Assembly: GCA_020742515.1 (NCBI GenBank)
Contig: DYWT01000278.1
Coordinates: 1 to 35,465 of the forward strand
Source: Sporosarcina psychrophila
Lineage (GTDB): Bacteria; Bacillota; Bacilli; Bacillales_A; Planococcaceae
Length of the DNA: 35,465 nt
Reading direction: 5' to 3'
Part shown: piece after piece, positions 4,783-26,952 of the stretch
Layout: each line of letters opens with the position of its first letter
Numbering within the stretch: position 1 is the stretch's first letter
Made by a program: the position numbers and the translations under genes
Notes under the pieces: generated by a model
The model's database searches: none
What the model saw: the letters and a program-made list of their open reading frames with translations, nothing else
Told to the model about the DNA's origin: nothing

Positions 4783-4804
4783 AAGATATGTAGGGATGAA
4801 GCAT

Positions 4805-5695
4805 ATGAAAATACTGGCAATAGATATTGGCGGAACATCTCTTAAAGTTTGTATGGCTACTGAAAAAGGGATCATTTCTGAGTTTAACGAGTTCGATTCT
4901 GAAGCAGGAAAGGGTGGACAATATTTAGTCGACAATCTTATTCAGATAATTACTAAAAATTATTCGGGATATGAGGCCATTGGTATTAGTACTGCTAGTC
5001 AAGTAAACAGTGAAGATGGTTCAATCATTTATGCGAATGAAAACTTTCCGAATTACACAGGAATGAAAGTGAAAGCAATTTTTGAAGAGAAGTTTGGTGT
5101 CCCTGTGAAAGTTGAAAACGATGTGAACGCGGCCGCTTTAGGGGAAAAACATTTTGGAGCTGGTAAGAAGTTCAAGGATTTCTTATGCTTAACTTACGGA
5201 ACAGGGATAGGCGGTGCAATTGTAATTGATTCCTCTGTTTATAAAGGGCTTAATGGAGGTGCAGGCGAATTTGGTCATATGATTTTGTATCCTGGCGGTA
5301 AGAAGTGTAATTGTGGATGTGTAGGATGTTATGAGATGTATGGATCTACTACAGCCTTAGTGAAAAAAGCATTGGAACTGGATAAAAAGTATATTAACGG
5401 TCGAACGATTTTTGAAGGCCTTGAACAAGGTGATGAAAAACTTGAGAAAGTTCTTAATGACTGGGTGCTTGAAGTAGCTTATGGTCTCGTTTCTTTAACG
5501 CATATCTTTAATCCTCCTGCTATTATTATAGGCGGCGGGGTTATGGAGCAAGAAAGATTAGTGTCATTGGTATCGAGTAAAGTAAAAGAATTAATGTTGA
5601 GGAGTTTTTCGGGTGTGAAGATATTGAGGGCCTCTCTTGGAAACAAAGCTGGAGTATTAGGGGCGGCATCACTTCATTTACCGATGAGAGACTAG
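4805..5695 (+). CDS. ROK-family sugar kinase (glucokinase-like)
   Basis: The 296-residue product should phosphorylate a hexose or related sugar with ATP in the cytoplasm. It has the N-terminal phosphate motif DIGGT at residues 7-11, the catalytic-loop motif [19 protein letters not shown], and the ROK zinc site formed by H158 and C168-x-C170-G-x-x-G-C175. The ATG at 4805 is preferred over that at 4796: AGGG at 4792-4795 lies 9 bases from the former but touches the latter, and [11 protein letters not shown] is a typical ROK N-terminus. There is no helix-turn-helix domain, so it is an enzyme and not a regulator. It stands alone between two terminators, ahead of the YesL-like gene. Glucose, mannose or a beta-glucoside are all possible substrates; the sequence does not decide. 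Confidence 0.85.
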
Positions 5696-5952: not shown

Positions 5953-6648
5953 ATGAATAGCAAGTCAGGTTTCATGGGCGGATTGTATATTATCAGTGAA
6001 TGGATTATGAAATTTTCTTTGATTAATCTATTTTGGATACTCTTTAATATACCCATTGTTTTTCTACTTTTAAATATATTATTTGTTGAACGGATGGAAG
6101 AATTGCCTCTTTTACTAATTCCATTAATCATATTGATACCAATCTTATTCTTTCCAGCAACAACGGCGATGTTTGCAATGGTAAGAGAGTGGATTATTAA
6201 TGATGAGGATAATGGACAACTTTTTAGGTCCTATTGGGGGTACTATAAAGATAATTATAAAAAAAGTGTATTGAGTGGTCTTATTTTAACAATGGCTTGG
6301 CTGATTTTGGCGGTAGATGTCTTTTACCTTTTTGATAAAAATAATAGTATGATGTTTCTCTTTTTGATTATGGGTATTATTTTATTTGTCTTTTCAATCA
6401 ACCTTTTTTCAATTACTGTTCATTATCACATGAGGTTGCTTACTTCATTAAAAAATGCTTTTCTCTTAACGATAGGAAGCCCTGTTTTATTTATGGCGGT
6501 GGCGATTAGCAGTGGACTGGTCTTATATATTAGCGTAAACATCTTCAGGTATTTACTCCCCTTTTTAACAGGTTCGCTTATTGCGTTTTTAACTTTTTCT
6601 GCATTTTATAGAAACCATTTAAAACTTATTGAAAAGAGTGAGAGATGA
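5953..6648 (+). CDS. YesL-like DUF624 membrane protein
   Basis: The 231-residue protein is an integral membrane protein with about five to six hydrophobic segments. Its opening, FMGGLYIISEWIMKFSLINL, is typical of the DUF624/YesL family of Firmicutes. Members are usually encoded next to carbohydrate ABC importers and two-component systems, and their molecular function is unknown. Here it lies directly upstream of the sugar-binding lipoprotein gene, which fits that habit. AAGGAGG at 5938-5944, 8 bases before the ATG, fixes the start. The 180-base gap to the next gene holds two LacI-type operators, so it is probably not in the same transcript as the importer. A role in importer assembly or regulation is inference. 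Confidence 0.75.
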   Translation: MNSKSGFMGGLYIISEWIMKFSLINLFWILFNIPIVFLLLNILFVERMEELPLLLIPLIILIPILFFPATTAMFAMVREWIINDEDNGQLFRSYWGYYKDNYKKSVLSGLILTMAWLILAVDVFYLFDKNNSMMFLFLIMGIILFVFSINLFSITVHYHMRLLTSLKNAFLLTIGSPVLFMAVAISSGLVLYISVNIFRYLLPFLTGSLIAFLTFSAFYRNHLKLIEKSER

Positions 6649-6719
6649 AAAATTAAAAAAGACGACAATTCTTGTTGCGCAATTCTAAATAGAGTGATAA
6701 CCTAAAAGGGCATTACAGT

Positions 6720-6731
6720 GCAACCGGTTTC
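6720..6731 (+). promoter_or_regulatory. LacI-type operator, copy 1
   Basis: TGCAACCGGTTTCA (core 6720-6731) is a near-palindrome with the central CG typical of LacI-family operators. It matches copies at 6787-6798 and 11066-11077. It lies just upstream of a possible promoter, TTGGAG (6741-6746) and AATATA (6764-6769), that would serve the sugar-binding protein gene. The likely regulator is the LacI protein at 10015-11034. Confidence 0.65.
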
Positions 6732-6786
6732 ATAAACAGTTTGGAGGGGATAGATTTATACCCAATATACGCTTACATGGAGTTGT

Positions 6787-6798
6787 GCAACCGCTTTC
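6787..6798 (+). promoter_or_regulatory. LacI-type operator, copy 2
   Basis: TGCAACCGCTTTCA lies 67 bases downstream of copy 1 and 30 bases before the sugar-binding protein start. It would sit at or just after the transcription start and so would block transcription. It also resembles the CcpA cre consensus with two mismatches, so catabolite control is an alternative. Confidence 0.65.
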
Positions 6799-6828
6799 AT
6801 TAAATCAGTACAAAAAAGGGGAGATTAT

Positions 6829-8127
6829 ATGAAAAGCAAAAAGCAGATTATCAGTTTGGTTTCTGTATTATTAATTTCTATTATTGCGTTAGTGGGGTGC
6901 TCAGCTTCGGAAGAGGAAGGTAGTACTGCATCTAAGGACCAGGTAACTGTTGATATTTATCAATTTAAAGTAGAAATTAAAGATCAATTTGAAAGTTTAG
7001 TCAAAGTATATGAAAAGGAAAACCCCGGCGTGAAAATTAATGTTAAAACTGTCGGTGGTGGCAATGATTATGGTGCCACTTTAAAAACATTATTTTCTTC
7101 CGGTGAAGAACCAGACATTTTTAATGTAGGCGGACCATCTGCCGTTGAAGAGTATAAAGATTATTTAGCAGATGTATCTGATACAGCGGCAGTTACGGCA
7201 TCTCTTGATGGGACTTTAACAGCTGTCCAGGATGGCGAAAAAATTTTAGGATTGCCATTTAACCAAGAAGGTTATGGATTGATTTTTAACAAAGCAATTT
7301 TAGAGAAGGCTGGCATTAACCCAGATGAAATAATTACGTTTGAGGATTTAGAAAATGCAGTTGAATTAATAGATAGTAAAAAAGCGGACCTGGGTATTGA
7401 TGCAGTATTCGCCCTACCAGCTAAAGAATTATGGGTTTTAGGGGACCATATCGCAAATATGTTCCTAGCACCAGAGTTTAATAATGATATTTCAGAGGCA
7501 TATAATGCTGAAACAATCGCATTTGAAAAAGGCGATGAGTTAAAAAGATATATTGATTTGCAAAATAAGTATTCTGTTCAGCCAATACTTAGCCTTGACT
7601 ACTCTCAACAGGTAGAACAGTTATTTTCTTTAGAAAAAGTTGCTATGATTCAACAAGGCAACTGGGTATATAATTCCGTTTATGATATGGATCCAGAATT
7701 AGCGGAAAAAGGTATTGGTATTTTGCCAGTTCCGGTGGAAGGCTTTGAAGGAAAGATTCCAGCGGGTGTACCAATGTTTTGGGCTGTAAATGGGAAGAGT
7801 GATCCAAAAGTGGTGCAAGCAAGTAAGGATTTCTTAGATTGGATGTACACATCTGAGACGGGGAAAACTGCAGTGTTAGAAGATTTCAAATTTATCCCTG
7901 CTTATAAGGGGTATGATGCCTCGAAAATTGCTGATCCTCTTTCGCAAAAGATTTATGAATATGCTGAAGCTGGTAACACAATCGAAGGATGGGTATATCA
8001 AGCTACTCCAACAGGATGGAATCAAGAAACACTTGGTGTTAATATGCAAAAGTATTTAAGTGGCGCCATGGAATGGGATGAAGTGATAGCTGAAGCACGT
8101 ACTAAGTGGGAAGAAGAACGAAAATAA
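6829..8127 (+). CDS. Sugar ABC importer, substrate-binding lipoprotein (SBP_bac_1)
   Basis: The 432-residue protein has a lipoprotein signal peptide: a basic N-terminus, a hydrophobic core and the lipobox LVGC with Cys24 as the lipidated residue. The mature part has the family 1 extracellular sugar-binding protein pattern (EKENPGVKINVKTVGGGND; EEPDIFNV near the N-terminus; NQEGYGLIFNKAILEKAGI; a C-terminal WEEERK). It captures a sugar or oligosaccharide outside the membrane and delivers it to the two permeases encoded next. AGGGGAG at 6817-6823 supports the ATG at 6829. Two operator copies upstream point to LacI control. The substrate is unknown; the downstream ThuA and oxidoreductase genes suggest a glucoside-type disaccharide, but that is inference. 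Confidence 0.88.
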   Translation: MKSKKQIISLVSVLLISIIALVGCSASEEEGSTASKDQVTVDIYQFKVEIKDQFESLVKVYEKENPGVKINVKTVGGGNDYGATLKTLFSSGEEPDIFNVGGPSAVEEYKDYLADVSDTAAVTASLDGTLTAVQDGEKILGLPFNQEGYGLIFNKAILEKAGINPDEIITFEDLENAVELIDSKKADLGIDAVFALPAKELWVLGDHIANMFLAPEFNNDISEAYNAETIAFEKGDELKRYIDLQNKYSVQPILSLDYSQQVEQLFSLEKVAMIQQGNWVYNSVYDMDPELAEKGIGILPVPVEGFEGKIPAGVPMFWAVNGKSDPKVVQASKDFLDWMYTSETGKTAVLEDFKFIPAYKGYDASKIADPLSQKIYEYAEAGNTIEGWVYQATPTGWNQETLGVNMQKYLSGAMEWDEVIAEARTKWEEERK

Positions 8128-8144
8128 CATAATTCAGCGTTACT

Positions 8145-8166
8145 CTGCTATCTCTATAGATAGCAG
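8145..8166 (+). other. Intercistronic hairpin after the binding-protein gene
   Basis: A perfect 9-bp stem (CTGCTATCT, 8145-8153, with 8158-8166) has a 4-base loop and no T-run. Without the T-run it is more likely to protect the 3' end of the abundant binding-protein message, or attenuate transcription partly, than to terminate it. Confidence 0.55.
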
Positions 8167-8220
8167 GAGAATGTGAAGTAGGATGTAATATAGTGCAGAT
8201 TCAAATACTATAAGATTGCC

Positions 8221-8248
8221 GCATTCGGCGGATGCCAAGGAATTTGAA
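8221..8248 (+). repeat. Degenerate copy of a GC-rich intergenic repeat
   Basis: This 28-base stretch matches 12933-12960 at 23 of 28 positions, including an unbroken GGCGGATGCCA. Only the left part of the longer element at 12933-13020 is present here. Confidence 0.5.
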
Positions 8249-8253
8249 AAATG

Positions 8254-8291
8254 CAGCTAATAAAAACGTGTGCAAGAGTTTTTGTTAGCTG
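8254..8291 (+). other. Second intercistronic hairpin before the permease genes
   Basis: The segments 8254-8267 and 8278-8291 pair over 14 bp with one G-U wobble and a 10-base loop. The hairpin ends 24 bases before the permease start and close to its ribosome site, so it could influence permease expression. Confidence 0.5.
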
Positions 8292-8315
8292 TACTACATA
8301 TTGGGGGTGCTAGTA

Positions 8316-9176
8316 ATGCGTAATCGTGACCTTTCATTTTGGTTGTTTTTAATGCCAGTGATTTTGAGCTTAGGGATTGTCATCATTATTCCATTTATAT
8401 ATGGCTTTATTTACTCTTTTACAAATTGGAACGGGATGGTAGCAACTGAATTTATCGGTTTTAAGAATTACATCACTTTATTTAAAGATGCAGAGTTCAG
8501 AGCATCCATTTGGTTTACGACTAAGTTTGCAATTACTTCTGTAATTCTTCTTAACTTTTTAGGGCTAGGCCTAGCTTTGCTCGTAACACGGAAGATGAAG
8601 ACAAGTAGTTTTATGCGAACTGTTTTCTTTATGCCAAACTTAATTGGCGGACTCATATTAGGATTTATTTGGCAGTTTGTTTTCATAAGTGTATTTGGAA
8701 GCCTGGGAGATTTGCTTGGGGTTGAGGCATTAACAGGTTGGTTGTCTACGACCGCAACTGGTTTTTGGGGGCTAGTCATTTTGACATCGTGGCAAATGGC
8801 TGGGTACATTATGATTATCTATATTGCTTATTTAGAAAATATACCGAAGGATTTACTTGAAGCTGCAGAAATTGATGGTGCATCTAGTTATCAGCGTTTT
8901 TGGAAAATCACTTTTCCGCTAGTAGCGCCGGCATTTACCGTTAGTATGTTTTTAACACTGTCCAATTCATTTCAAATCTATGACCAAAATCTATCATTAA
9001 CAAATGGTGGACCTTATAACTCCACTCAAATGGTTGCGATGAGCATCGTTAAAGCTGCTTTTACTGAAAACAAAATGGCTTATGCCCAGACGCAAGCCGT
9101 TATTTTCTTTCTCATTATAGCAGCCGTTGCAATCACACAAGTTTACTACAATAAAAAACGGGAGGTAGAGTTATAA
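8316..9176 (+). CDS. Sugar ABC importer permease (MalF type)
   Basis: The 286-residue integral membrane protein has about six transmembrane helices and belongs to the binding-protein-dependent (MalF/UgpA) permease family. The EAA loop that docks the ATPase is visible as ENIPKDLLEAAEIDGASSYQ followed by RFWKITFPLVAP. The ATG at 8316 is used: GGGGGTG at 8303-8309 sits 6 bases before it, and MRNRDLSFWLFLMP is a normal N-terminus. An upstream TTG at 8301 lies within that ribosome site. The gene forms a pair with the next permease, overlapping it by one base, so the two are translationally coupled. No ATPase gene follows. Confidence 0.88.
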   Translation: MRNRDLSFWLFLMPVILSLGIVIIIPFIYGFIYSFTNWNGMVATEFIGFKNYITLFKDAEFRASIWFTTKFAITSVILLNFLGLGLALLVTRKMKTSSFMRTVFFMPNLIGGLILGFIWQFVFISVFGSLGDLLGVEALTGWLSTTATGFWGLVILTSWQMAGYIMIIYIAYLENIPKDLLEAAEIDGASSYQRFWKITFPLVAPAFTVSMFLTLSNSFQIYDQNLSLTNGGPYNSTQMVAMSIVKAAFTENKMAYAQTQAVIFFLIIAAVAITQVYYNKKREVEL

Positions 9177-9994
9177 TGAAGCAAAGTAAACGTAATCTGT
9201 ATATTATTGAGTTTTTTGGCCTCTTGCTTGCTTTGCTATGGCTCTCACCTTTTTACTTAATGCTTACCAATGCGTTTAAAACAAAGAGGGAAATTTTCAC
9301 GGATGTACTTGGATTGCCTAATGAATACACGATGGATAACTTTGTGAAGGCTTTTATTGATTTAGATTTTATGAAATCTCTCTTTAACTCTGTAATAATT
9401 ACCGTTTTAGGAGTAGGAGTTATTATAGTCTTTTCCTCTATGGCAGGTTATGCGTTGGCGCGGAATAAGAGTAAACTGAGCGGCATTATCTTTTTAGTAT
9501 TCGTTGCTGCTATGTTAATTCCGTTCCAATCTGTTATGATTCCCCTTGTTTCGATTTTTGGAAAAGCTGACATGCTAAATCGTACTGGTCTTATCTTTAT
9601 GTATTTAGGTTTTGGTTCTAGCCTCTCCATATTTTTATATCATGGCGCAATGACTGGCATATCCAATTCAATGGATGAGGCAGCAATTATCGATGGAGCG
9701 AATAAATTCCAAGTGTTTTGGAAAATTATTTTTCCGTTATTCAAGCCTATTTCCGTTACAGTAGGAATATTAAACGTGATTTGGATTTGGAACGATTACT
9801 TATTACCGTCTCTAATATTATCGGACTCAAGTGCAACAATCCCAATAAAAATGTTCCTTTTCTTTGGTCAATACACAAAACAGTGGCATTTAGCATTAGC
9901 TGGGTTAACAATCGCTGTTATTCCAGTTATTATTGGGTACTTCTTTGCACAAAAGCAAATTATCGAAGGGGTATCTGAAGGTGCCGTTAAATAA
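9176..9994 (+). CDS. Sugar ABC importer permease (MalG type)
   Basis: The 272-residue protein has six predicted membrane segments and the MalG-type EAA loop GISNSMDEAAIIDGANKFQ followed by VFWKIIFPLFKP. It is the second channel subunit. Its ATG shares the final A of the preceding permease stop codon (TAATG), and a GGGAGGT ribosome site lies in the end of that gene. The C-terminal QIIEGVSEGAVK is the usual ending of MalG-type permeases (the ATPase-contacting tail). It is followed 20 bases later by the LacI gene, so importer and repressor are one operon. Confidence 0.88.
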   Translation: MKQSKRNLYIIEFFGLLLALLWLSPFYLMLTNAFKTKREIFTDVLGLPNEYTMDNFVKAFIDLDFMKSLFNSVIITVLGVGVIIVFSSMAGYALARNKSKLSGIIFLVFVAAMLIPFQSVMIPLVSIFGKADMLNRTGLIFMYLGFGSSLSIFLYHGAMTGISNSMDEAAIIDGANKFQVFWKIIFPLFKPISVTVGILNVIWIWNDYLLPSLILSDSSATIPIKMFLFFGQYTKQWHLALAGLTIAVIPVIIGYFFAQKQIIEGVSEGAVK

Positions 9995-10014
9995 AACTAT
10001 AGAGGATGAAGGTA

Positions 10015-11034
10015 ATGTCAGTAACAATTAAAGATGTTGCGGCCCGGGCGAATGTAGCTCCATCTACCGTATCACGAGTTATTTCAGATAGTCCGCACAT
10101 TAGTGAGAAAACGAAACGGAAAGTCCAAAAGGTTATGGATGAAATGGGGTATCATCTAAACTATAATGCGCAAATGCTTGCAACACAATCAACAAAGACA
10201 ATCGGTATTATTATGAAAAACTCTACGGCAGAATTTATGCATAACTCCTTTTTTCCTGAAGTCATTAGGGGGATAAGTGCTTTGTGCAGTAAGCATGATT
10301 TCAGTATCAGTCTAACTACAGGGGAAACCGAAGAAGAAATCTTTACTGATACTGTGAAAATGGTCCGTGGAAAAAGAGTAGATGGCATGATTGTCTTATA
10401 CTCAAAAAAAGATGATAAAGTAGTTCCTTATTTAATTGAATCGGGCATTCCTTTTGTCGTCATCGGCAAACCTTTAATTGAATCCAGTAAAATCATGTTT
10501 GTAGATAATGATAACGTCCAAGCAGCAAAAGAAGCGACAGATTTCTTACTAAACCTTGGACATAAAAAGCTTGCATTTATTGGTGAAGATGAGCAGTTTG
10601 AAGTAAGTGAAGCCAGGTTAAATGGTTTCATTCAAGCAGTAAAAGGGCAAGGATTGACTGTTTCAGAGGGGTATATCAAGAATATACAATTTGATCCTCT
10701 CCACGGAAAAAAAATCGTCACTGAATTAATGAACTTAGCTGAACCGCCTACTGCATTAGTTGTCTCGGATGACTTAAATGCATTAATTGTGCTGACTGCT
10801 TTAAGTGAGAAAAATATCAAAGTACCGGACGATATGAGTATGATTGTCTTTAATAATTCAGTCATATCAAAAGTAGCCAATCCACCTTTAACGACTGTAG
10901 ATACACAAATATTCCAATTGGGGTATGAATCGGCGAACTGCTTGATCGAGCTGGTGAAAGATCCGCAAATGTTTAAAAAAAGTGTCATCATACCAACTGT
11001 TATTGTGGAAAGAAATTCTTGTTTACCCTTGTAA
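10015..11034 (+). CDS. LacI-family transcriptional repressor
   Basis: The 339-residue protein begins with a LacI helix-turn-helix (VTIKDVAARANVAPSTVSRV, residues about 3-22) and hinge helix, followed by a periplasmic-binding-protein-like effector domain. The ATG at 10015 is chosen over 10006 because GAGG at 10002-10005 is correctly spaced only for the later one. It sits in the operon between transporter and catabolic genes. LacI repressors of this kind sense the imported sugar or a derivative. The three GCAACCG(G/C)TT operators at 6720, 6787 and 11066 all flank genes of this operon, so autoregulation through them is likely; that link is inferred, not shown. Confidence 0.88.
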   Translation: MSVTIKDVAARANVAPSTVSRVISDSPHISEKTKRKVQKVMDEMGYHLNYNAQMLATQSTKTIGIIMKNSTAEFMHNSFFPEVIRGISALCSKHDFSISLTTGETEEEIFTDTVKMVRGKRVDGMIVLYSKKDDKVVPYLIESGIPFVVIGKPLIESSKIMFVDNDNVQAAKEATDFLLNLGHKKLAFIGEDEQFEVSEARLNGFIQAVKGQGLTVSEGYIKNIQFDPLHGKKIVTELMNLAEPPTALVVSDDLNALIVLTALSEKNIKVPDDMSMIVFNNSVISKVANPPLTTVDTQIFQLGYESANCLIELVKDPQMFKKSVIIPTVIVERNSCLPL

Positions 11035-11065
11035 TTAAGGAGAATGCGTAATTCCAAGCATTGGT

Positions 11066-11077
11066 GCAACCGGTTGC
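11066..11077 (+). promoter_or_regulatory. LacI-type operator, copy 3 (perfect palindrome)
   Basis: GCAACCGGTTGC is a perfect 12-bp palindrome between the lacI stop and the ThuA start, and the most symmetric of the three copies. It suggests that the catabolic genes thuA onward have an extra regulated promoter, or that repressor bound here acts as a roadblock or loop anchor with the two upstream copies. Confidence 0.65.
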
Positions 11078-11118
11078 TTGAATTCATGCAACAGATTATT
11101 TCGAAGGAGGAACTATTC

Positions 11119-11844
11119 ATGAACATCGTCGTATGGAATGAAAATCGTCATGAACAAAAAAATCCAGTTGTCTCGACTATTTATCCAAAAGGTATCCATG
11201 GGGCCATTGCTGATTTTTTACAACAAGACGCTAACAATGTAAAAACAGCCATACTAGATGAACCGGAACATGGTTTAACGCAAGAGGTTTTGGATGAAAC
11301 CGATGTACTTGTCTGGTGGGGACATCTTGCACATGATGAGGTACAAGATGAGATAGTAGAAAGGGTCAAGAAGCGTATATTAGATGGCATGGGGTTGATA
11401 GTCTTGCATTCTGCTCATTTTTCTAAGGTATTCAAGACGTTGATGGGGACAACTTGTGATCTTAAATGGCGTGAAGCGGATGAGAAAGAACGATTATGGG
11501 TTGTTGATCCGAGCCATCCGATTACAGAGGGTATCGGAGAATATATCGAACTTGAAAAAGAAGAAATGTACGGGGAGTATTTTGATATCCCTGTACCTGA
11601 TGAGTTGGTGTTTGTCAGTTGGTTTGAAGGTGGAGAAGTTTTTCGAAGTGGCGCAACATTTAAGCGTGGAAAAGGGAAGATATTTTATTTTCGTCCAGGA
11701 CATGAAACGTACCCGACGTATCACAATCAAGATGTACAAACGGTCATTCGCAACGCAGTGAAGTGGGCTTCAAACTCTAATTCGCCTACACCGATGTATG
11801 GCAATGCAAAGCCGCTAGAGAAGATTGCTAATCATAACGAATAA
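11119..11844 (+). CDS. ThuA-domain protein (trehalose-utilisation type)
   Basis: The 241-residue protein is a ThuA-like protein with a class I glutamine-amidotransferase-type fold. Recognisable segments are [35 protein letters not shown] and the C-terminal [13 protein letters not shown]. In rhizobia ThuA works with the Gfo/Idh enzyme ThuB on disaccharides through 3-keto intermediates; the chemistry of ThuA itself is poorly defined. AAGGAGG at 11104-11110, 8 bases before ATG 11119, fixes the start; an in-frame ATG at 11044 would run through the operator and has no ribosome site. A Gfo/Idh gene follows 20 bases later, the ThuA-ThuB order. The substrate here is unknown. Confidence 0.8.
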
Positions 11845-11864
11845 CACCAAGAGGAGTGGAATAA

Positions 11865-12890
11865 ATGTCGAAATTACGAGTTGCAGTTATTGGCTGTGGA
11901 AGTATTGCTAGGTATAGACATTTAGGAGAGTACGCGAATCATTCGGCAGTCGACATTGTTGCGGTCTGTGACATTGTTGAAAAAAGAGCACAAAAAACGG
12001 CACAGCAATACGGTGCAAAGGCTTATACGGATTATAAAAGTTTGCTTGAAGTCGAAAAAATAGATGCAGTTAGTGTTTGTTTACCGAACTATTTACATGC
12101 ACCTGTGTCGATTGCAGCTTTAGAGGCAGGCTGTCACGTCCTATGTGAAAAACCAATGGCAACGTCAAAAGAAGAAGCACTAGAGATGATTAATGCAGCA
12201 AAAAGTCATGATAAAAAGCTAATGATAGCGCATAATCAACGTTTTGTACCATCACATACAAAGGCGAGAGCGTTAATAGCTAGTGGTGAAGTAGGTAAAA
12301 TTTATAGCTTCAGAACGGCTTTTGGACATGGCGGACCTGAAGGCTGGAGTATTGACGGTAAAGACAGTTGGTTCTTCAATAAAGAGCAAGCTTTTATTGG
12401 AGCGATGGGGGATCTTGGCGTACATAAAGCTGATTTGCTCCGCTACTTACTTGGCGAAGAGTTTGTCGAAGTAGCTGGTTTTATTGAAACAAGCGCAAAA
12501 GAAAATACAGATGTTGATGATAATGCAGTTTGTATTTTAAAATCTGAAAGCGGTGTGATTGGCACACTTGCAGCTAGTTGGGCTTATACAGCAAAAGAAG
12601 ATAATTCCACGATTATTTATGGTGACCATGCTACATTGCGTTTAGAAGACAATCCTAACTATTCGTTAATTGTTCAATATAAAAATGGTGAAACCGTTAA
12701 CTACGAATTAGGTGGCATTCAGTCTAATGCCGAAGGCGGTCAAACCACCACGCATATAATCGATCATTTTGTTGAGTCGATTGTTCAAGATACTGAGCCA
12801 TTGATTAATGGTGTGGAAGGCATGAAGTCATTAGAAGTAATTCTAGCAGCTTTGGAATCAATGGAAACAAAACAATTCACCAGAATTTAA
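11865..12890 (+). CDS. Gfo/Idh/MocA-family oxidoreductase, ThuB-like position
   Basis: The 341-residue protein is an NAD(P)-dependent sugar oxidoreductase. It has an N-terminal Rossmann motif (VIGCGSIA), the conserved E95-K96-P97 with the catalytic Lys, and the C-terminal-domain motif MGDLGVHKADLLRYL, in which the GVH histidine is the usual second catalytic residue. A GAGGAG ribosome site precedes the ATG. Its place right after the ThuA gene suggests oxidation of the imported glycoside, or reduction of a keto product, in the cytoplasm. The stop codon lies inside a 15-bp hairpin (12886-12932), so transcription or decay may be modulated before the next gene. Exact substrate and direction cannot be read from the sequence. 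Confidence 0.85.
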   Translation: MSKLRVAVIGCGSIARYRHLGEYANHSAVDIVAVCDIVEKRAQKTAQQYGAKAYTDYKSLLEVEKIDAVSVCLPNYLHAPVSIAALEAGCHVLCEKPMATSKEEALEMINAAKSHDKKLMIAHNQRFVPSHTKARALIASGEVGKIYSFRTAFGHGGPEGWSIDGKDSWFFNKEQAFIGAMGDLGVHKADLLRYLLGEEFVEVAGFIETSAKENTDVDDNAVCILKSESGVIGTLAASWAYTAKEDNSTIIYGDHATLRLEDNPNYSLIVQYKNGETVNYELGGIQSNAEGGQTTTHIIDHFVESIVQDTEPLINGVEGMKSLEVILAALESMETKQFTRI

Positions 12891-12932
12891 CTTGATTCAG
12901 CAGGGTCAAGACTCCTACTGAATCAAGTTAAA
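12886..12932 (+). other. Hairpin overlapping the stop codon of the Gfo/Idh gene
   Basis: The segments 12886-12900 and 12918-12932 are perfect 15-base reverse complements around a 17-base loop. The TAA stop (12888-12890) is inside the left arm. No T-run follows, so it is probably not a complete terminator. Confidence 0.6.
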
Positions 12933-13020
12933 GCCTCCGGCGGATGCCACAGATTTTGAAGGGAGAGAATTGAGCAAGCTCAATTCAAAATCTGGGCACA
13001 AATACGCCGGGGCGTATTTG
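12933..13020 (+). repeat. Compound palindromic intergenic element
   Basis: This short GC-rich element holds nested inverted repeats. CAGATTTTGAA (12950-12960) pairs with a copy ending near 12994 and encloses a GAATTGAG/CTCAATTC hairpin. A second hairpin, CAAATACGCC (12999-13008) with 13011-13020, has a 2-base loop. The GGCGGATGCC left end recurs at 8221-8248. The base composition is unlike the flanks, which suggests a dispersed repeat or mobile miniature element; copy number in the genome is not visible here. Confidence 0.55.
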
Positions 13021-13055
13021 ATTTAAAACAAAGATAACCATTGGAGGTAATATTC

Positions 13056-14024
13056 ATGAAACTAGGCGTATTTGCAGTTTTATTTTCACAAAAGCCATTT
13101 GAAGAAATGCTGGACTATGTAAAAGATGCCGGTTTACAAGCAATAGAAATTGGAACAGGTGGAAATCCAGGGGATGTCCATTGCAATGTAGATGAACTAC
13201 TTGAAAGTGAGGAGAAACGGAAGATCTATCTGGATAAAATTCAATCGCGCGGACTAACGATTAGTGCATTCAGCTGTCATGACAATCCAGTTTCGCCAAA
13301 TAAACAAATCGCACAAAACGCACATGACACATTCGTGAAAACTGTTAAATTGGCACAGTTATTAAATGTGCCTGTTGTGAACACATTTTCAGGAACACCA
13401 GGATCTCATGAAGGGTCAAAACATTCCAACTGGCCAGTATCTCCGTGGCCAACAGAGTACTCGGACATTTATAACTGGCAATGGGAACAAAAACTCATTC
13501 CTTACTGGAAAGAGCAAGGGAAATTTGCAGAAGATCATGGCGTTAAAATTGGAATCGAACTTCATGGAGGTTTTTCAGTACATACACCATTTACGCTGTT
13601 GAAATTAAGAGAAGCAACCTCACCGGCTATCGGAGCCAATTTGGATCCAAGTCATCTCTGGTGGCAGGGGATTGACCCGGTCGCGGCGATCAAGATTTTA
13701 GGAAAAGAAAATGCCATTCACCATTTCCATGCCAAAGATACATTCATTGACCAGGACAATGTGAATATGCATGGTTTAACAGACATGCAGCCATACGGAG
13801 ATTTGCAAACACGCGCATGGACATTTAGATCTGTCGGCTGTGGGCATAGTATCCAAGAATGGTCCGATATGATGAGTGCTTTACGCACCTATGGCTATGA
13901 TTATGTCGTAAGTATCGAACATGAAGATCCGTTAATGTCGGTTGTTGAAGGATTTTCACGTGCAGTGACAAATTTGAAATCTGTAATGATTAAGGATCAA
14001 CCAGCAGATATATGGTGGGTGTAA
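13056..14024 (+). CDS. Sugar isomerase/epimerase-like TIM-barrel enzyme (AP_endonuc_2 family)
   Basis: The 322-residue protein has the xylose-isomerase-like TIM-barrel pattern with a divalent-metal site. Likely ligands are E168 (GIELHGG), D197 (ANLDPSHLWW), H225 (HHFHAKD) and E288 (SIEHEDP). The family includes keto-sugar epimerases, inosose-type dehydratases and lyases acting on 3-keto-glycosides. The ATG at 13056 follows GGAGG at 13043-13047; an in-frame ATG at 13041 has no such site. It is the last gene before a terminator and is separated from the oxidoreductase by the hairpin and repeat element. Co-occurrence with ThuA and Gfo/Idh genes points to work on an oxidised sugar made by them. 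The specific reaction is inferred only at class level. Confidence 0.8.
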   Translation: MKLGVFAVLFSQKPFEEMLDYVKDAGLQAIEIGTGGNPGDVHCNVDELLESEEKRKIYLDKIQSRGLTISAFSCHDNPVSPNKQIAQNAHDTFVKTVKLAQLLNVPVVNTFSGTPGSHEGSKHSNWPVSPWPTEYSDIYNWQWEQKLIPYWKEQGKFAEDHGVKIGIELHGGFSVHTPFTLLKLREATSPAIGANLDPSHLWWQGIDPVAAIKILGKENAIHHFHAKDTFIDQDNVNMHGLTDMQPYGDLQTRAWTFRSVGCGHSIQEWSDMMSALRTYGYDYVVSIEHEDPLMSVVEGFSRAVTNLKSVMIKDQPADIWWV

Positions 14025-14197: not shown

Positions 14198-14247
14198 ATG
14201 TTGAAGAATAAATTGCAGATAATCTAAAATAGAAAAGAGTGTTCTAT

Positions 14248-15288
14248 ATGAAAGTATTAAGAGTGGGAATCATTGGTGCTGGAGCAATTGCAAGAGATGT
14301 ACATATCCCTAGTTATTTGAATAACGAGAATAAGGTGGAGGTAGTTGCTATCGCTGATGTCGTAGCTGAACGTGCTCAAGAAGCTGCAGAGAAATTTAAT
14401 ATCCCACATGCTTTTTCTTCATACACGGAAATGCTAGAAAACGTTAAACTAGATGCAGTTAGCGTTTGTGTACCAAATAAATTTCATGCGGAAGCTACGA
14501 TTGCTGCGCTCGAGGCAGGTTGTCATGTGTTGTGTGAAAAACCACCGGCAATTACTGTGGAAGAAGCGCAATTGATGGCAAAAGTAGCTAGCATGTCTGA
14601 AAAAATTTTAACGTATGGGTTTCACTATCGCTATCGACCTGAAGTAGAAATTACAAAATCGTTTATTGATGCGGGAGAAATGGGCGATATTTATGCTGCC
14701 CGCGTTCATGCTATTCGTAGGAGAGGTATTCCAGGGTGGGGTGTATTTACGAATAAGGAATTACAAGGAGGAGGTCCGTTAATCGATATTGGTGTTCATA
14801 TGCTAGATACCGCTCTCTACCTCATGGGCTACCCAGAGCCTGAAGTTGTGTTGGGGAAAATCCACCAACAAATTGGTCATAAAAAAGGAGTAGGGCTATT
14901 TGGTGAGTGGGACTTTGAAAACTATACAGTAGAAGATATGGCTGTAGGTATGGTGACATTTAAAAATGGAGCCACTTTAACTTTGGAAGCTGCTTTTGCC
15001 GCAAATGTTGAAAAAGATGAGACCATGCAGGTTTCCTTGATGGGGAATAAAGGGGGAGCTGATATTTTCCCTTTGAAAATTTATCAAGAGAAATACAACA
15101 CATTAATCGATAGTACTCCTGCTTATCTACCGGAAGTAAATGGCCATCAACTTGAAATCAATCAATTTGTAGCATGCTGTTTGAAGGGTAAGACCCCATT
15201 AAGCACGCCAGAACAAGGCCTTATCATTCAAAAAATCGTGAATGCTATTTATGAATCTGCGGAAACTGGGATAGCGATACAGTTTTGA
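14248..15288 (+). CDS. Gfo/Idh/MocA-family oxidoreductase
   Basis: The 346-residue NAD(P)-dependent oxidoreductase has an N-terminal VGIIGAGAIARDVHIP Rossmann motif, E97-K98-P99 with the catalytic Lys, and the C-terminal motif GGGPLIDIGVHMLDTALYLMG with its His. The length is normal for the family. The ATG at 14248 is used: a GTG at 14239 would extend it by three residues, and the AAAAGAG ribosome site is weak but better spaced for the ATG. It forms a single-gene unit between two terminators. Its similarity to the 11865-12890 product (shared AALEAGCHVLCEKP block) suggests the two are paralogues that act on related sugar substrates. Confidence 0.85.
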   Translation: MKVLRVGIIGAGAIARDVHIPSYLNNENKVEVVAIADVVAERAQEAAEKFNIPHAFSSYTEMLENVKLDAVSVCVPNKFHAEATIAALEAGCHVLCEKPPAITVEEAQLMAKVASMSEKILTYGFHYRYRPEVEITKSFIDAGEMGDIYAARVHAIRRRGIPGWGVFTNKELQGGGPLIDIGVHMLDTALYLMGYPEPEVVLGKIHQQIGHKKGVGLFGEWDFENYTVEDMAVGMVTFKNGATLTLEAAFAANVEKDETMQVSLMGNKGGADIFPLKIYQEKYNTLIDSTPAYLPEVNGHQLEINQFVACCLKGKTPLSTPEQGLIIQKIVNAIYESAETGIAIQF

Positions 15289-15312: not shown

Positions 15313-15361
15313 AAAAAGGCTGTGTAGTATGAATGTCCAATTCATACTACACAGCCTTTTT
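15313..15361. terminator. Bidirectional terminator between convergent genes
   Basis: A perfect 21-bp stem (15313-15333 with 15341-15361) has a 7-base loop. It carries an A-run on the left and a T-run on the right, so it can stop the plus-strand Gfo/Idh gene and the minus-strand gal operon alike. Confidence 0.9.
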
Positions 15362-16302
15362 TATAAAGTAAGAATTTTTGTCACACTACGAGAAATTTCA
15401 TGTGTATTGATTGTAGATTCTAGTTGTTTATTTTTTACGCATTTTATAAACTCTTCAACTTCATAGTACATCGAATCAAATTCATGTTTAATAGAAATAT
15501 CCTCAGTTTGACCGTCTTTGTATTTGATAGTAATTTGTTTCGGATCACTGATTTTATCTATTTCGATGACACCATTCTCACCCTGTATTTCATTGGCAGA
15601 ATGTGAATCAGAAATTTTTGAGTACATAATAACGGCTTCAAATTCACTGTAATTTAAGATCATACTTCCTTGGCCATCTGCACCAGTGGATAATAAATAA
15701 GTGTTTTTGAGTACAGATTTCGGTTCGCCGACTAGATGAATAATAGGTGCGATACAATAAACACCTAAGTCTGTTTTTGCTCCATTACCCAGTTCGGGTT
15801 TAAAGGCATTTTCAATAATACCTGCTTTGTAGTTATCGTAGCGGGAAGAATATTGATTGTAATGAAATACGAATCGACGGAGTGGACCAATCTTAGCTAG
15901 GTTCTCTTTTAGGTTTAGAAATGTAGGTGTAACTGTGGATTTCATAGCTTCCATATAGGTGGTTTGATACTCTTTAGATGCGTTAATTACTTGATCCATT
16001 TCATGTAAGGATGTTACTGCTGGTTTTTCGCAAAGAACATGAATACCATTCTTCATTGCTGAAATACTTTGTTCTGCATGAAACGCATTTGGCGATGCAA
16101 TATAAACGGCTTCTATATCACCACTTTGAAACATTTCTATCATATTTGTATACACATTTTTGACCTTATGTTTCTCTGCAAACTCTCTTCCAGTTTCTTC
16201 AGTTCTTGAATAGACTGCCCCAATACTAAACTCGGTATGTTCTTTAGCTGCTTTAATAAATCGATCTGTAATCCAATTCGTTCCGATAATTCCAAACTTC
16301 AT
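15361..16302 (-). CDS. Gfo/Idh/MocA-family oxidoreductase at the end of the gal operon
   Basis: The 313-residue protein has an N-terminal FGIIGTNWITDRF nucleotide-binding motif and E92-K93-P94. The second catalytic position is unusual: GAKTDLGVYCIAPIIHLVG, with Tyr where most members have the GVH His. The start at 16302 follows a purine-rich AAAGGGG site; an upstream Met at 16500 would overlap galM and add 66 residues unlike the family. It is the last gene after galK-galE-galT-galM, 148 bases beyond galM, and its stop lies at the edge of the bidirectional terminator. It could be a galactose or keto-sugar dehydrogenase that complements the Leloir route, but that is inference from position. Confidence 0.8.
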   Translation of the reverse strand: MKFGIIGTNWITDRFIKAAKEHTEFSIGAVYSRTEETGREFAEKHKVKNVYTNMIEMFQSGDIEAVYIASPNAFHAEQSISAMKNGIHVLCEKPAVTSLHEMDQVINASKEYQTTYMEAMKSTVTPTFLNLKENLAKIGPLRRFVFHYNQYSSRYDNYKAGIIENAFKPELGNGAKTDLGVYCIAPIIHLVGEPKSVLKNTYLLSTGADGQGSMILNYSEFEAVIMYSKISDSHSANEIQGENGVIEIDKISDPKQITIKYKDGQTEDISIKHEFDSMYYEVEEFIKCVKNKQLESTINTHEISRSVTKILTL

Positions 16303-16450
16303 AGTAAGAGCCCCTTTAGTTATATATGTTGAAATAAAGAATCCCATTGAATTCGTTACACCTTGAATAGCGTCTTCGCTCTGTTTATAAAGGTGTTCAT
16401 TTATTCTATATTTAGTCAATAATAAGTAGTCCCTGTCGTATAGAGTACAT

Positions 16451-17488
16451 TTAGCGCTCGATGCCAAATGAAAAAACTGTCTGCTTTTCATATAGTTCAT
16501 GGGCCTTTAAGATAACGGGCGGAAATCCCGCGTGATGCAAGGAGGCAGGGAAGGCTTGTGTTTCAAAACAGACACCTAAATAAGGTCTGGATTTTCCTTC
16601 TGATAGATCGAGCCCTTCAACGAGGGTATTTGCTGTGTACATAACGACGCCTGGTTGGGTGGTCTTAATTTTCATCACACGGCCACTCGTTACTTCTTTT
16701 ACACGGATGCTTTGTTGTTTATTTTGATTGAAAATAAAGTAATGATCATATCCAGAATTAGCAACTTTATTTTGTGCTGATATGGAATTTATGCCATCAC
16801 CAAGCTTCCTTTCGGTTCGAAAATCAAAAGGAGTATTAGATACATTGATCTTATTACCAGTTGGAATTAGTCTCGTATCAAGTTCAACAAATTCATTACT
16901 TTCCATTGTAACATGATGATTGTGTATCGTTGCGGCTAAATTCCCACTTAAATTGAAATAGGAATGATTAGTCATTGTAAGTACAGTTGTTTCGTCAGAT
17001 TTTCCATCATAATCAAGAATTAGCTTATTGCTATTAGTCAATGTATAGGTAACGGCAACTTCAATAGTACCAGGATATCCGCCTTCACCACCTAAACTTT
17101 TATGGGTTAATTTCACGCCAGCTGTATCATCTGTTTGAAAGGGGCTAGCTCGCCAGATTACTTGATGAAAACCTCCTGATCCTCCGTGCAAATGATGATC
17201 CCCCTCATTTGCTTCCAATAAGAATGTTTGATTTTGGATTGTAAATGAAGCATCTTGAATTCTACCCGCAACACGGCCAATAATTGCGCCAAAGTAGTTA
17301 GAGTTCTTTTCATAATCGGCATAATTTTTGAAGCCAAGAACCACATTTTCTATCGTGTTAGTTTGGTCTGGAACGCTAATGTTAGTTATGATGCCACCAA
17401 AGTCCAAAAAGCTTACTTTCATGCCGTTATCATTTACTAAAGTATATAACTTCCATTTACTCAGGATATCTTGGATTTCTATTTTCAT
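16451..17488 (-). CDS. galM: Aldose 1-epimerase (galactose mutarotase)
   Basis: The 345-residue enzyme interconverts alpha and beta anomers of galactose so that GalK can use beta-galactoside products. Visible family motifs are NYFGAIIGRVAGRI, EGDHHLHGG with His at about residue 101, NHSYFNLSG with the second catalytic His, GYDHYF, and the C-terminal CFETQAFPASLHH with the catalytic Glu. The ATG at 17488 is preferred: AGGTGA lies 8 bases upstream. A GTG at 17500 would add four residues but overlaps that site. It starts 12 bases after the galT stop, so it belongs to the galKETM operon. Confidence 0.92.
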   Translation of the reverse strand: MKIEIQDILSKWKLYTLVNDNGMKVSFLDFGGIITNISVPDQTNTIENVVLGFKNYADYEKNSNYFGAIIGRVAGRIQDASFTIQNQTFLLEANEGDHHLHGGSGGFHQVIWRASPFQTDDTAGVKLTHKSLGGEGGYPGTIEVAVTYTLTNSNKLILDYDGKSDETTVLTMTNHSYFNLSGNLAATIHNHHVTMESNEFVELDTRLIPTGNKINVSNTPFDFRTERKLGDGINSISAQNKVANSGYDHYFIFNQNKQQSIRVKEVTSGRVMKIKTTQPGVVMYTANTLVEGLDLSEGKSRPYLGVCFETQAFPASLHHAGFPPVILKAHELYEKQTVFSFGIER

Positions 17489-17500
17489 TTGACTAGTCAC

Positions 17501-18979
17501 CTACCTATTTAAAGTCTTGATAAATCGTTCACACTCGCTTTGTACTTTAAAAACGCCTGCATCTCCAAGTATTTTGGCAAATTTTATCCCAAGTTCTTTT
17601 TTTAAAAAGTTTTCAATTTGCTCAAGGTTTGATACTTCTCCATACTTATCTTTCATTTGTTCTGCCCATTCCTGATGATAGGTGGCGACAGCACTTGTTT
17701 GATTTAGTAAAAACATCTTGATTTCAGCTAATTCATCTTTAAGACGAGCGGGTAATACTGCGAGTCCCATTACTTCAATAAGCCCAATATTTTCTTTTTT
17801 TATGTGATGGACATCTGTGTGCGGGTGGAAAATCCCAAGTGGGTGGTCAGCTGTAGTCCGATTGTTTCGTAAGACCAGATCGAGTTCAAACTTGTTAGCA
17901 CGCATTCGAGCAATTGGTGTGATGGTATTATGTGGGGTATTTCCACTAAAGGCTCTGATATCCGCTTCCTCATCATTATAATTTTTCCATGTAGTAAGTA
18001 CGTGGTCAGCTGCTTGAATCAATGGTTCTATTTCGTCGCCCTGCAAGCGGATGGTAGTTAGTGGCCATTCTAGGACAGAGGCAGTTATGTGAGTAAACTT
18101 TTCAAAAGTAAATGTAAACGCATTTGTTGCAGTTGTCATTGGGAAATCGTATCTTCCTGTTTGGTAATGATCATGATTCAAAATGGATCCACCGACAATT
18201 GGTAAATCAGCATTTGAACCAATAAAATAATGTGGGAATTTCTCTATAAAAGTAAGTAACCGTTTACAAGTGTCCTTACCAATTTTCATGTCACGATGTT
18301 CTTCAGCTAGTAAAATACTATGTTCATTATAATAAACATAGGGTGAATATTGCAGATACCAATTTTCATTTATAAGTGGTACTTGAATAATACGATGATT
18401 TGCCCTAGCTGGATAACCTGTCCGGCCAGAATACCCTTCGTTTTCTATGCACAATAAACATTTTGGATAATCAACATCATGTTTCAGTTGGCTTTCTCTT
18501 TTAATTTGTTCAGGATCTTTTTCGGGTTTTGACATGTTAATGGTAATATCCATTTCACCATAAATTGTTTCAGCTTTAAAATGGATGTTTTTCTTGATGC
18601 GGTTCATCTGAATGTAATTACTGTTTTTACTTAATTCATAAAAATAATCTGTTGCTTCCTTAGGAGAGTTTCGATATTTTTGTTGAAAGACAGCGTTGAT
18701 AACAGAAGGTCTTGCCACAAAGCAATTCATAATCGATGCCGAAAGTATTTCTTTGTCATCAAACACATCGTCAATCACGTTGTTTTTGATGGCGTAGGCA
18801 ATGATTTTGTCGAGTATATTTGGAATCGAATCATCTGGTTTGCTTTCAGTTGTTGCAGGCATCGATTCGAGATGGAGCAATGCAAGTACTTGGTTCGTTA
18901 CATAAATCTGATCAGTGTCATCGATTAACTCCACCTCGACAGCTTTTCGAATGAGCCCTTTAATCTGTTGGTAAATCAT
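17501..18979 (-). CDS. galT: Galactose-1-phosphate uridylyltransferase, type 2
   Basis: The 492-residue protein transfers UMP from UDP-glucose to galactose 1-phosphate. The length and sequence fit the long Firmicutes type 2 GalT, not the 350-residue HPH type. The active-site histidine motif is NHDHYQ within [19 protein letters not shown]; a second conserved block is [20 protein letters not shown]. The start at 18979 overlaps the galE stop in ATGA, which implies translational coupling. A longer frame from 19078 would overlap galE by about 100 bases and adds residues unlike the family. It is the third gene in the operon. Confidence 0.93.
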
Positions 18980-19980
18980 TTCGCCGTCACATCCTTCTGA
19001 TAACCATTCGGGTTGTTGACATGCCAGTTCCAAGCATCTTGAATGATTTTTTCGATCGAAGTTCGTGTTGGTTTCCAACCTAATTGAGTAGCAGCTTTAT
19101 GAGAGCTTGCGATTAGAATACTAGGATCACCCGCACGGCGTTCACCTGTTTTCTCAGGAATTTCATTACCTGTAACTGCCCGTGCTGTATCAATCATATC
19201 TTTGACTGAAAACCCTTGATTACTGCCAAGATTGAAAATGTCACTTTTTCCATTATTGTTTAAATAATTGAGTGCTAGAAGATGTGCATCGATAAGGTCT
19301 TCTACATGTACATAATCACGGATACATGTGCCGTCGGTGGTATCGTAATCTTCTCCAAAAACAGTAATATGTGATCGCTGTTCGAGAGCTACTTGGAGAA
19401 TGATTGGCACGAGATGTGTTTCGGGATGATGATCCTCGCCAATTTCTCCAGATTCCCGCGCACCCGCCACATTGAAATAGCGTAATGCAACATAGCGAAT
19501 GCCATAGGCTAGTTCGCACCATTTTATCATTTTTTCCATCAACAATTTTGTTTCTCCATAAGTACTTGTCGGATTGGTAGGCATCTCTTCTGTGATAGGG
19601 ACAGATTCTGGCTCCCCGTAAGTGGCTGCTGTTGATGAAAAGACAATTTTTTTGACATTAAACTCTGTCATGACTTGCAGTAATACTTGTGTACCATAGA
19701 CATTATTATCAAAGTACTCTAATGGTTTTTCCATGGATTCACCGACAAGGGAATTAGCCGCAAAATGAACTACTGCATCAATGGATTCATTTGTAAATAC
19801 GTTACGCATAAACGCGATGTCTCGGCTATCACCTTCGTAAAATGTTGCATCTGGATGGACGGCTTCCCTGTGTCCCGTTTGCAGATTATCAATTACTACG
19901 ACATCCAACTGTTGATCGATTAGCTGATAAACCGCATGTGAACCGATATATCCAGCTCCACCTAGAACTAATACACTCAT
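18976..19980 (-). CDS. galE: UDP-glucose 4-epimerase
   Basis: The 334-residue short-chain dehydrogenase/reductase-type enzyme interconverts UDP-galactose and UDP-glucose with bound NAD. It has the Rossmann motif GGAGYIG at residues 7-13, the SSTAATYG segment at about 115-122 with the active-site Ser/Thr, and the catalytic pair Y141 and K145 in YGETK. The start codon follows the galK stop directly (TAGATG), with AAGGAG shortly upstream inside galK. Besides the Leloir route it can supply UDP-galactose for cell-envelope sugars. Confidence 0.95.
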
Positions 19981-23579: not shown

Positions 23580-23694
23580 AAAGGGTGTATCGAGATTCAT
23601 AGGTAGAATTAAAAATTTAGCGGGGTGATTGTGTTTTTTTATAATCTTTGGGTTACTGAACAATTATGTTAATCAAAAAGGGGAGGGTATTAGT

Positions 23695-25065: not shown

Positions 25066-25089
25066 TCCAAATCGATTAAATTGAACAAC

Positions 25090-25121
25090 ATTCCCCTAGT
25101 CTAGCAGTAGATTAGGGGAAT
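25090..25121 (+). other. Intercistronic hairpin after the second binding-protein gene
   Basis: The segments 25090-25102 and 25109-25121 pair over 13 bp with one G-U wobble and a 6-base loop. No T-run follows. It occupies the same place as the hairpins in the first importer operon, so a message-protecting or attenuating role is likely. Confidence 0.6.
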
Positions 25122-25175
25122 ACTTCTAAAAGAAATTACATAAAAGTCAAATAGTTTCGAAGGTAGGTGTTTATC

Positions 25176-26057: not shown

Positions 26058-26072
26058 TATGGAGGTGGCAAG

Positions 26073-26921: not shown

Positions 26922-26952
26922 TCATAAAATGATGACAAAAGGAGTTGTAGTA

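Follow-up and report, generated by a model that had tools for sequence, protein, structure and literature searches.

We analyzed a window of Sporosarcina psychrophila DNA that comprises all of contig DYWT01000278.1 (C278 in our numbering; 35,465 bases). The window contains a forward-strand unit encoding ATP-binding cassette (ABC) importer proteins, a LacI-family regulator, a ThuA protein, two Gfo/Idh oxidoreductases (GfoA and GfoB) and a xylose-isomerase-like TIM barrel (HYD). The unit is a real, conserved and regulated module of the oxidative-elimination type, a variant with ThuA at the point where the known TIM-barrel lyase would be expected. The explanation that best accounts for the whole, which we hold with about even confidence, is that a LacI-controlled operon imports a glucoside and splits its glycosidic bond non-hydrolytically. 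The frame of oxidation, hydration and reduction is probable, and the role of ThuA as the lyase of the pathway is a tentative assignment. What we observed is the gene content and its conservation, the homologies, the predicted fold and the operator matches; from these we infer all of the reactions, the substrate and, most of all, what ThuA does. In the proposed pathway, a DgpA-like Gfo/Idh protein (GfoB, perhaps GfoA) would oxidize the glucosyl C3, and ThuA would β-eliminate the leaving sugar to give 2-hydroxy-3-keto-glucal. HYD would add water to this product, yielding 3-keto-glucose, which a Gfo/Idh protein would reduce to glucose, either separately or by DgpA-type exchange with the next substrate; a ROK kinase would phosphorylate the released hexose.

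We assessed conservation in the best 80 of at least 593 ThuA relatives from named genomes, counting neighbors on the same strand within 5.2 kb. TIM-barrel and Gfo/Idh genes both accompanied ThuA in 66 of the 80 loci (60 of the 71 with complete flanks), nine loci had Gfo/Idh and no TIM gene, and five had neither. A same-strand Gfo/Idh gene stood beside ThuA in 75 loci, as it does in the window. Because 66 loci keep all three genes close by, the grouping is not a product of chance, and the conservation search proposed in the preliminary description of this region recovered the trio that it had singled out. When the window was added, the commonest order was ThuA-GfoA-Gfo-TIM (53 of 81 loci); the window's own order was found in 3 of 81. 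The TIM gene was present in 185 of 398 genomes of the class (E ≤ 1e-90), 43 of 200 of the order (1e-30) and 47 of 299 of the phylum (1e-10). The TIM gene and its module are therefore common in Bacilli, not rare. The window's ThuA and its counterpart in Sporosarcina sp. BP05 share 91% identity. Two genera of the same family (g5 and g6; loci L095-L111) have a TIM protein at 61-64% identity, mostly beside a divergent LacI gene; nothing related to the window's Gfo proteins was seen in the 3-4 kb examined there.

The proposed oxidation draws on GfoA (11865-12890; Pfam GFO_IDH_MocA) and GfoB (14239-15288), both on the forward strand; the GfoB open reading frame (ORF) is listed from 14239, and an ATG lies at 14248. 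By homology GfoB matches a C3-specific glycoside oxidoreductase: its closest PDB chains are DgpA1 (273.6 bits) and DgpA (259.7 bits), and the next chain reaches 101.4 bits. The counterpart of GfoB in other loci, the middle Gfo, gave 305 bits to DgpA as a 28-sequence profile, compared with 131 bits for the next non-DgpA chain. As a single sequence, GfoA scored 132 bits to DgpA, 128 to DgpA1 and 124 to glucose-fructose oxidoreductase; its profile scored 173, 154 and 154 bits, respectively. DgpA is described as oxidizing C- and O-glycosides by an exchange mechanism in which 3-oxo-glucose serves as oxidant (PMC11239390). Since DgpA works by exchange and is reset by 3-oxo-glucose, one Gfo protein could serve both redox steps; with two in the unit, either is a candidate for the reductase that returns 3-keto-glucose to glucose. 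Two other assignments were rejected: levoglucosan dehydrogenase (NF052479), with 149.5 and 120.3 bits for the Gfo proteins and a cut-off of 650, and the Bacteroides disaccharide and glycoside 3-dehydrogenases (NF058563 and NF058561; cut-offs 650 and 750), for which GfoA and GfoB reached at most 58.3 bits.

HYD (13056-14024, forward strand; Pfam AP_endonuc_2 112.8 bits, cut-off 31.1) has a probable start at 13056, judged from relatives (first listed codon 13041). A sequence profile of HYD matched PDB entry 2zds, of unknown function, at 46 bits and 8ro4 at 35.1 bits, followed by two weak matches at 23-24 bits; 8ro4 is AtHYD, a 2-hydroxy-3-keto-glucal hydratase. The structure predicted from a deep alignment had a mean predicted local distance difference test (pLDDT) value of 95.4. 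In a fold search with this model, the first four places went to chains of 2zds (template modeling (TM) score 0.78) and AtHYD (TM 0.82), and lower ranks included ketose 3-epimerases (TM 0.55-0.69) and, at rank 33, IolE (TM 0.65; all scores by query length). Residues E168, D197, H200, H223, H225, E288 and E290 were invariant across an alignment of 42 sequences that reached down to 30% identity, and we read them as a metal site. Because 2zds and AtHYD lead by both sequence and fold and the putative metal site is invariant, we named the protein HYD; it looks like a 2-hydroxy-3-keto-glucal hydratase, not a lyase. The preliminary description had proposed an oxidative glycoside route with the TIM barrel as lyase and a structural comparison with 3-keto-glycoside lyases. 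The frame of that route stands, since the Gfo/Idh and TIM proteins resemble DgpA and AtHYD, and the comparison did return a pathway enzyme. The lyase role does not fit as well: the best characterized relative is a hydratase and the lyase belongs to a separate family, which makes a TIM-barrel 3-keto-glycoside lyase the less likely assignment.

The same searches bear on two readings without bond cleavage by this module. The first is a catabolic operon for free sugars or inositol of the IolG/IolE kind. In its favor, the top NCBIfam models for GfoA include IolG, and IolE is the single model listed for the TIM barrel. Clustering with inositol enzymes, the outcome that the preliminary description had set against its model, was not seen at sequence or fold level: the Gfo proteins scored 161.1 (GfoA) and 127.5 bits against a cut-off of 355 for IolG (TIGR04380), HYD scored 32.1 bits against 290 for IolE (TIGR04379), DgpA lies far above the inositol dehydrogenases for GfoB, and IolE enters the fold ranking far down. 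We therefore rejected this reading as highly improbable. The second is modification in place of cleavage. E. coli YcjS, YcjR and YcjQ act by oxidation, epimerization and reduction of a glucoside, and two Gfo/Idh proteins, a TIM barrel and an importer would also fit such a route, with a glycosidase elsewhere; the many ketose 3-epimerases in the fold search are in line with it. However, AtHYD ranks ahead of these epimerases, and the modification reading gives ThuA no role, so we consider it quite improbable.

In the proposed pathway, ThuA would break the bond. ThuA (11119-11844, forward strand; Pfam ThuA 129.5 bits, cut-off 33.4; first listed codon 11044, probable start from relatives 11119) had one PDB match, 1t0b 'ThuA-like protein', at 401.8 bits, an entry whose title names no function. 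Eight histidines were invariant among 14 aligned ThuA sequences, which represent one subfamily, because 8 of the 29 loci fetched by the Pfam model matched the profile. The available parts of PMC4765114 and PMC6683767 assign no reaction to ThuA; PMC4765114 lists it as GATase1-like. ThuA and ThuB are named as degradation genes beside a palatinose/trehalose importer in Agrobacterium (PMC6683767), and in Paenibacillus sp. JDR-2 maltose raised the expression of ThuAB, which was proposed for maltose (PMC4765114).

Sister modules of related genomes encode a second, shorter TIM protein, whose best PDB match is 8bvk (145.6 bits), the 3-keto-O-glycoside eliminase (OGE) of Agrobacterium, AtOGE (PMC10628242). 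Residues H128, H130, D158, H184 and E224 were kept in 27 aligned homologues of this protein and fit the AtOGE residues described in PMC10628242. AtOGE cleaves 3'-keto-cellobiose, whereas it left 3'-keto-maltose uncleaved over as long as 20 h (PMC10628242). ThuA and the OGE-like gene take the same slot in the tandem modules of two Sporosarcina genomes. One genome (L147) has ThuA-GfoA-HYD-GfoB followed by OGE-GfoA-HYD-GfoB; the second (G165; L141-L143) carries one ThuA-GfoA-HYD and two OGE-GfoA-HYD modules within 52 kb, the OGE of the L142 module sitting at the end of L141. The three HYD copies of G165 fall in about 43 kb, with companions that differ between modules. Sister modules L144 and L145 have a divergent LacI gene between OGE and HYD and extra Gfo genes.

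Our searches of the window's own genome covered the 4.33-Mb draft assembly. The OGE profile (A8) found no match there at E ≤ 1e-15, CGE and LgdB1 having no queries of their own. The assembly encodes three PF01261 proteins, of which the best other than HYD scored 37 bits to OGE, and no PF06439 protein. At the same threshold, 13 of 31 genomes, including this one, lacked an OGE match; in one of them (G023), no ThuA was seen within the 4 kb examined. In the reverse search, which covered 17 genomes with one or more ThuA-less HYD modules, 10 had no ThuA match, and in two of the other seven the matching ThuA has an internal stop.

Next to the window's permeases lies an extracellular sugar-binding protein (SBP) whose closest PDB chain is 9xor, 'maltose-binding protein' (213.7 bits; the second chain gives 69.6). 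In 11 of the 80 ThuA loci, a GH13 gene starts no more than 2.5 kb 3' of HYD, and in eight no more than 70 bases from it; one representative passed the α,α-phosphotrehalase subfamily cut-off (562.7 versus 535) and not the TreC equivalog. Family counts for neighboring genes covered 130 of 141 genes near ThuA-only modules and 75 of 75 near OGE-only modules, leaving aside two-module loci, loci with both genes and the 231 genes near modules with neither. Alpha-amylase accounted for 7 of the 130 genes near ThuA-only modules; near OGE-only modules it was not among the 25 of 65 families listed, where GH43 was counted three times. A glucose-containing disaccharide is the most likely substrate, and it is probably α-linked. 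Taken together, the Agrobacterium and JDR-2 ThuAB genes, the specificity of AtOGE, the SBP, the GH13 neighbors and the invariant histidines suggest that ThuA may act as an α-3-keto-glycoside lyase. An extension of this idea, likewise tentative and bolder, is that ThuA is a lyase of non-TIM fold that eliminates α-configured 3-keto-glycosides as the counterpart of the TIM-barrel OGE for β-configured ones. Bacilli would then build interchangeable modules around a common oxidase/hydratase/reductase core, and the exchangeable lyase would decide anomer specificity.

Several observations weigh against these assignments. We examined 92 HYD-centered modules, chosen from the listed matches at about one genome per genus plus extras and including neighboring copies (8 of 92 with incomplete flanks), and counted companions over all ORFs within 5.2 kb of HYD, on the same strand for Gfo. 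Gfo was present in 83 modules; the lyase candidates were ThuA only in 25, OGE only in 16, both in 8 and neither in 43. Mutual exclusion of ThuA and OGE was not found among the 83 modules with Gfo (8 both, 25 ThuA, 16 OGE, 34 neither; p = 0.47), and neighboring genomes in these statistics are not independent. With 43 of 92 modules carrying neither candidate, HYD may work alone or the lyase may lie elsewhere. The GH13 excess beside ThuA was not significant (6 of 25 ThuA-only versus 0 of 16 OGE-only modules, p = 0.065), and GH13 also occurred in 2 of 44 modules with neither gene; as proof of an α-glucoside, GH13 is only suggestive. For GfoA, glucose-fructose oxidoreductase is almost as good a match as DgpA. 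The region held 25 promoter-like matches, compared with 35 in shuffled sequence, and a terminator scan likewise gave no excess over shuffles, so transcript borders are not established.

The main rival draws on the same counts. In it, HYD would be a bifunctional eliminase-hydratase that cleaves the bond, and ThuA an accessory, for example in keto-sugar isomer control or repair. LgdB2 of Bacillus smithii has been suggested for both steps, with low affinity for the elimination (PMC7676230), and HYD might do the elimination too for that reason. The E-x-H pair of HYD (E168, H170) is comparable, in our own reading against PMC10628242, to CGE's Glu and its catalytic His, and 34 of the 43 modules with neither ThuA nor OGE have Gfo. 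Against this, 49 of the 92 modules carry ThuA, OGE or both, 14 of the 80 ThuA loci have no HYD nearby (nine of them with Gfo), and AtHYD was inactive on 3-keto-phlorizin (PMC10628242). We regard a bifunctional HYD as rather unlikely.

The neighborhood of the unit also counts against an α-glucoside, since a Leloir gal operon adjoins the unit in opposing orientation (15361-21162; galM, T, E and K at 16451-21162) and a GH35 gene lies on the same contig. The adjacent gal operon would fit a galactoside, and such an operon borders the module in Sporosarcina BP05 (L002) and Lentibacillus sediminis (L005) as well. However, the gal genes lie in opposite orientation behind a 20-pair hairpin at 15315-15359, between GfoB and that operon, they turned up in 2 of the 80 ThuA loci from named genomes, and the SBP is nearest to a maltose binder. 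A galactoside as the substrate is thus improbable. The gal operon ends with a Gfo/Idh gene of its own (15361-16500), 91% kept in Sporosarcina BP05, and a further Gfo/Idh gene lies behind it at 21382-22362.

Turning to the remaining genes of the unit, all on the forward strand, the SBP of the ABC importer (6829-8127; Pfam SBP_bac_1 101.1 bits) is followed by ABC permeases 1 (8301-9176) and 2 (9176-9994), both matching Pfam BPD_transp_1, and by the LacI-family regulator (10006-11034; Pfam LacI and Peripla_BP_3). ORFs and Pfam agree with the earlier account of a binding protein, two permeases, LacI, ThuA, Gfo/Idh and a TIM barrel in this order. They also agree with its statement that the operon has no glycoside hydrolase or phosphorylase: a family scan of the unit's ORFs matched no such family. 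The SBP and two permeases have no ABC ATPase (ABC_tran) match beside them in the unit. The account placed the operon at 6829-14024; the genes inside these limits are real, and the unit is larger. It includes a ROK-family, glucokinase-like sugar kinase (4796-5695; Pfam ROK 219.5 bits; best NCBIfam model ROK_glcA_fam at 183.8 bits, below its cut-off of 260.35) and a DUF624 membrane protein (5953-6648; Pfam DUF624 75.9 bits) before the SBP, and GfoB after HYD. A ROK kinase 5' of the unit is also present in L002 and L004, and a DUF624 relative lies close to the module in other loci too. A glycosidase gene, encoding a GH35 protein (26929-28695), lies 12.9 kb past the TIM gene in a separate sugar system (23629-28695), which also comprises two permeases and an SBP that scored 436.7 bits to TIGR03850 (cut-off 299).

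Upstream of the SBP gene, two 19-base sequences are 89% alike and 67 bases apart; the pair fits a LacI-type palindrome, which we take to be the form of LacI-family operators. The corresponding pattern matched at 6719-6732 without mismatch, at 6786-6799, 67 bases from the first, and with one mismatch at 11065-11078, 54 bases 5' of the ThuA start (all on the forward strand). Allowing one mismatch, the window held seven matches at four places over both strands, where 0.75 were expected and 1 of 100 shuffles reached seven. A third exact match in the genome (C11:26660), inside a FAD_binding_3 gene, is probably due to chance. An operator site preceded 13 of the 40 SBP genes that we inspected in relatives, and two sites (at most one mismatch) preceded the SBP gene in all six relatives with SBP identity of at least 69%. 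Upstream of ThuA, a site (at most two mismatches) was present in 7 of 11 genes from ten loci, including five of the six close-SBP relatives; it lay at -48 to -54 in L002, L141, L144, L146 and L147, and was absent in L004, whose ThuA start is uncertain. As sequence matches, the three operators support common control of the unit. The TIM gene is preceded by a gap of 165 bases and GfoB by one of 214 bases, in which an inverted repeat was noted by eye; given these features, GfoB may be transcribed separately. The gap between GfoA and the TIM gene holds a palindrome-containing intergenic element (12929-13028) with 14 matches in its own genome, itself included, of which six cover at least 90 of 100 bases.

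Glycoside cleavage by oxidation and elimination is a recent alternative to glycosidases. An enzyme that cleaves α-linked 3-keto-disaccharides is a gap in the parts of the literature examined, because AtOGE was inactive on 3'-keto-maltose. The operon and the tandem sister modules offer a concrete test case for ThuA as the bond-breaking enzyme. If ThuA has this role, a reaction could be assigned to the Pfam family named 'Trehalose utilisation', and annotators could separate α- from β-glycoside modules by the lyase gene.

Finally, we compared the unit with known systems. Paenibacillus sp. JDR-2 had already provided a proposed Firmicutes ThuAB (PMC4765114). There, ThuA (5588) and ThuB (5587) stand beside a maltose importer with maltose-raised expression, so that a ThuA again accompanies an oxidoreductase; unlike the window, the available parts of that report describe no TIM hydratase or step past 3-keto-maltose. 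The thuEFGKAB genes of rhizobia and Agrobacterium likewise set ABC importer genes beside ThuA, with ThuA and ThuB named for the degradation of palatinose and trehalose, and involve 3-keto derivatives (PMC6683767), whereas the window unit has no ATPase gene (ThuK) and adds HYD and a second Gfo. In the GlycDH/AtOGE/AtHYD/Gfo operon of Agrobacterium tumefaciens, AtHYD resembles the window's HYD and AtOGE has its like in the sister modules, but the window's genome has ThuA and no OGE match at 1e-15, and the unit's oxidoreductases are of Gfo/Idh type (PMC10628242). The lgdA-lgdB1-lgdB2-lgdC cluster of Bacillus smithii, a Bacillus relative, likewise encodes a four-step route of oxidation, elimination, hydration and reduction with Gfo/Idh and TIM-type (sugar phosphate isomerase-like) enzymes, and like the window it has an ABC importer and LacI (PMC7676230). 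It differs in having its own eliminase, LgdB1, and no ThuA in the cluster's figure legend (PMC7676230); the window's Gfo proteins stay at the 149.5 and 120.3 bits given above for levoglucosan dehydrogenase (cut-off 650). In the dgp puerarin cluster, the lyase is DgpB-DgpC (PMC11239390, PMC8563793), whereas the window unit has one TIM gene; the DgpA of that cluster is GfoB's closest relative of solved structure.

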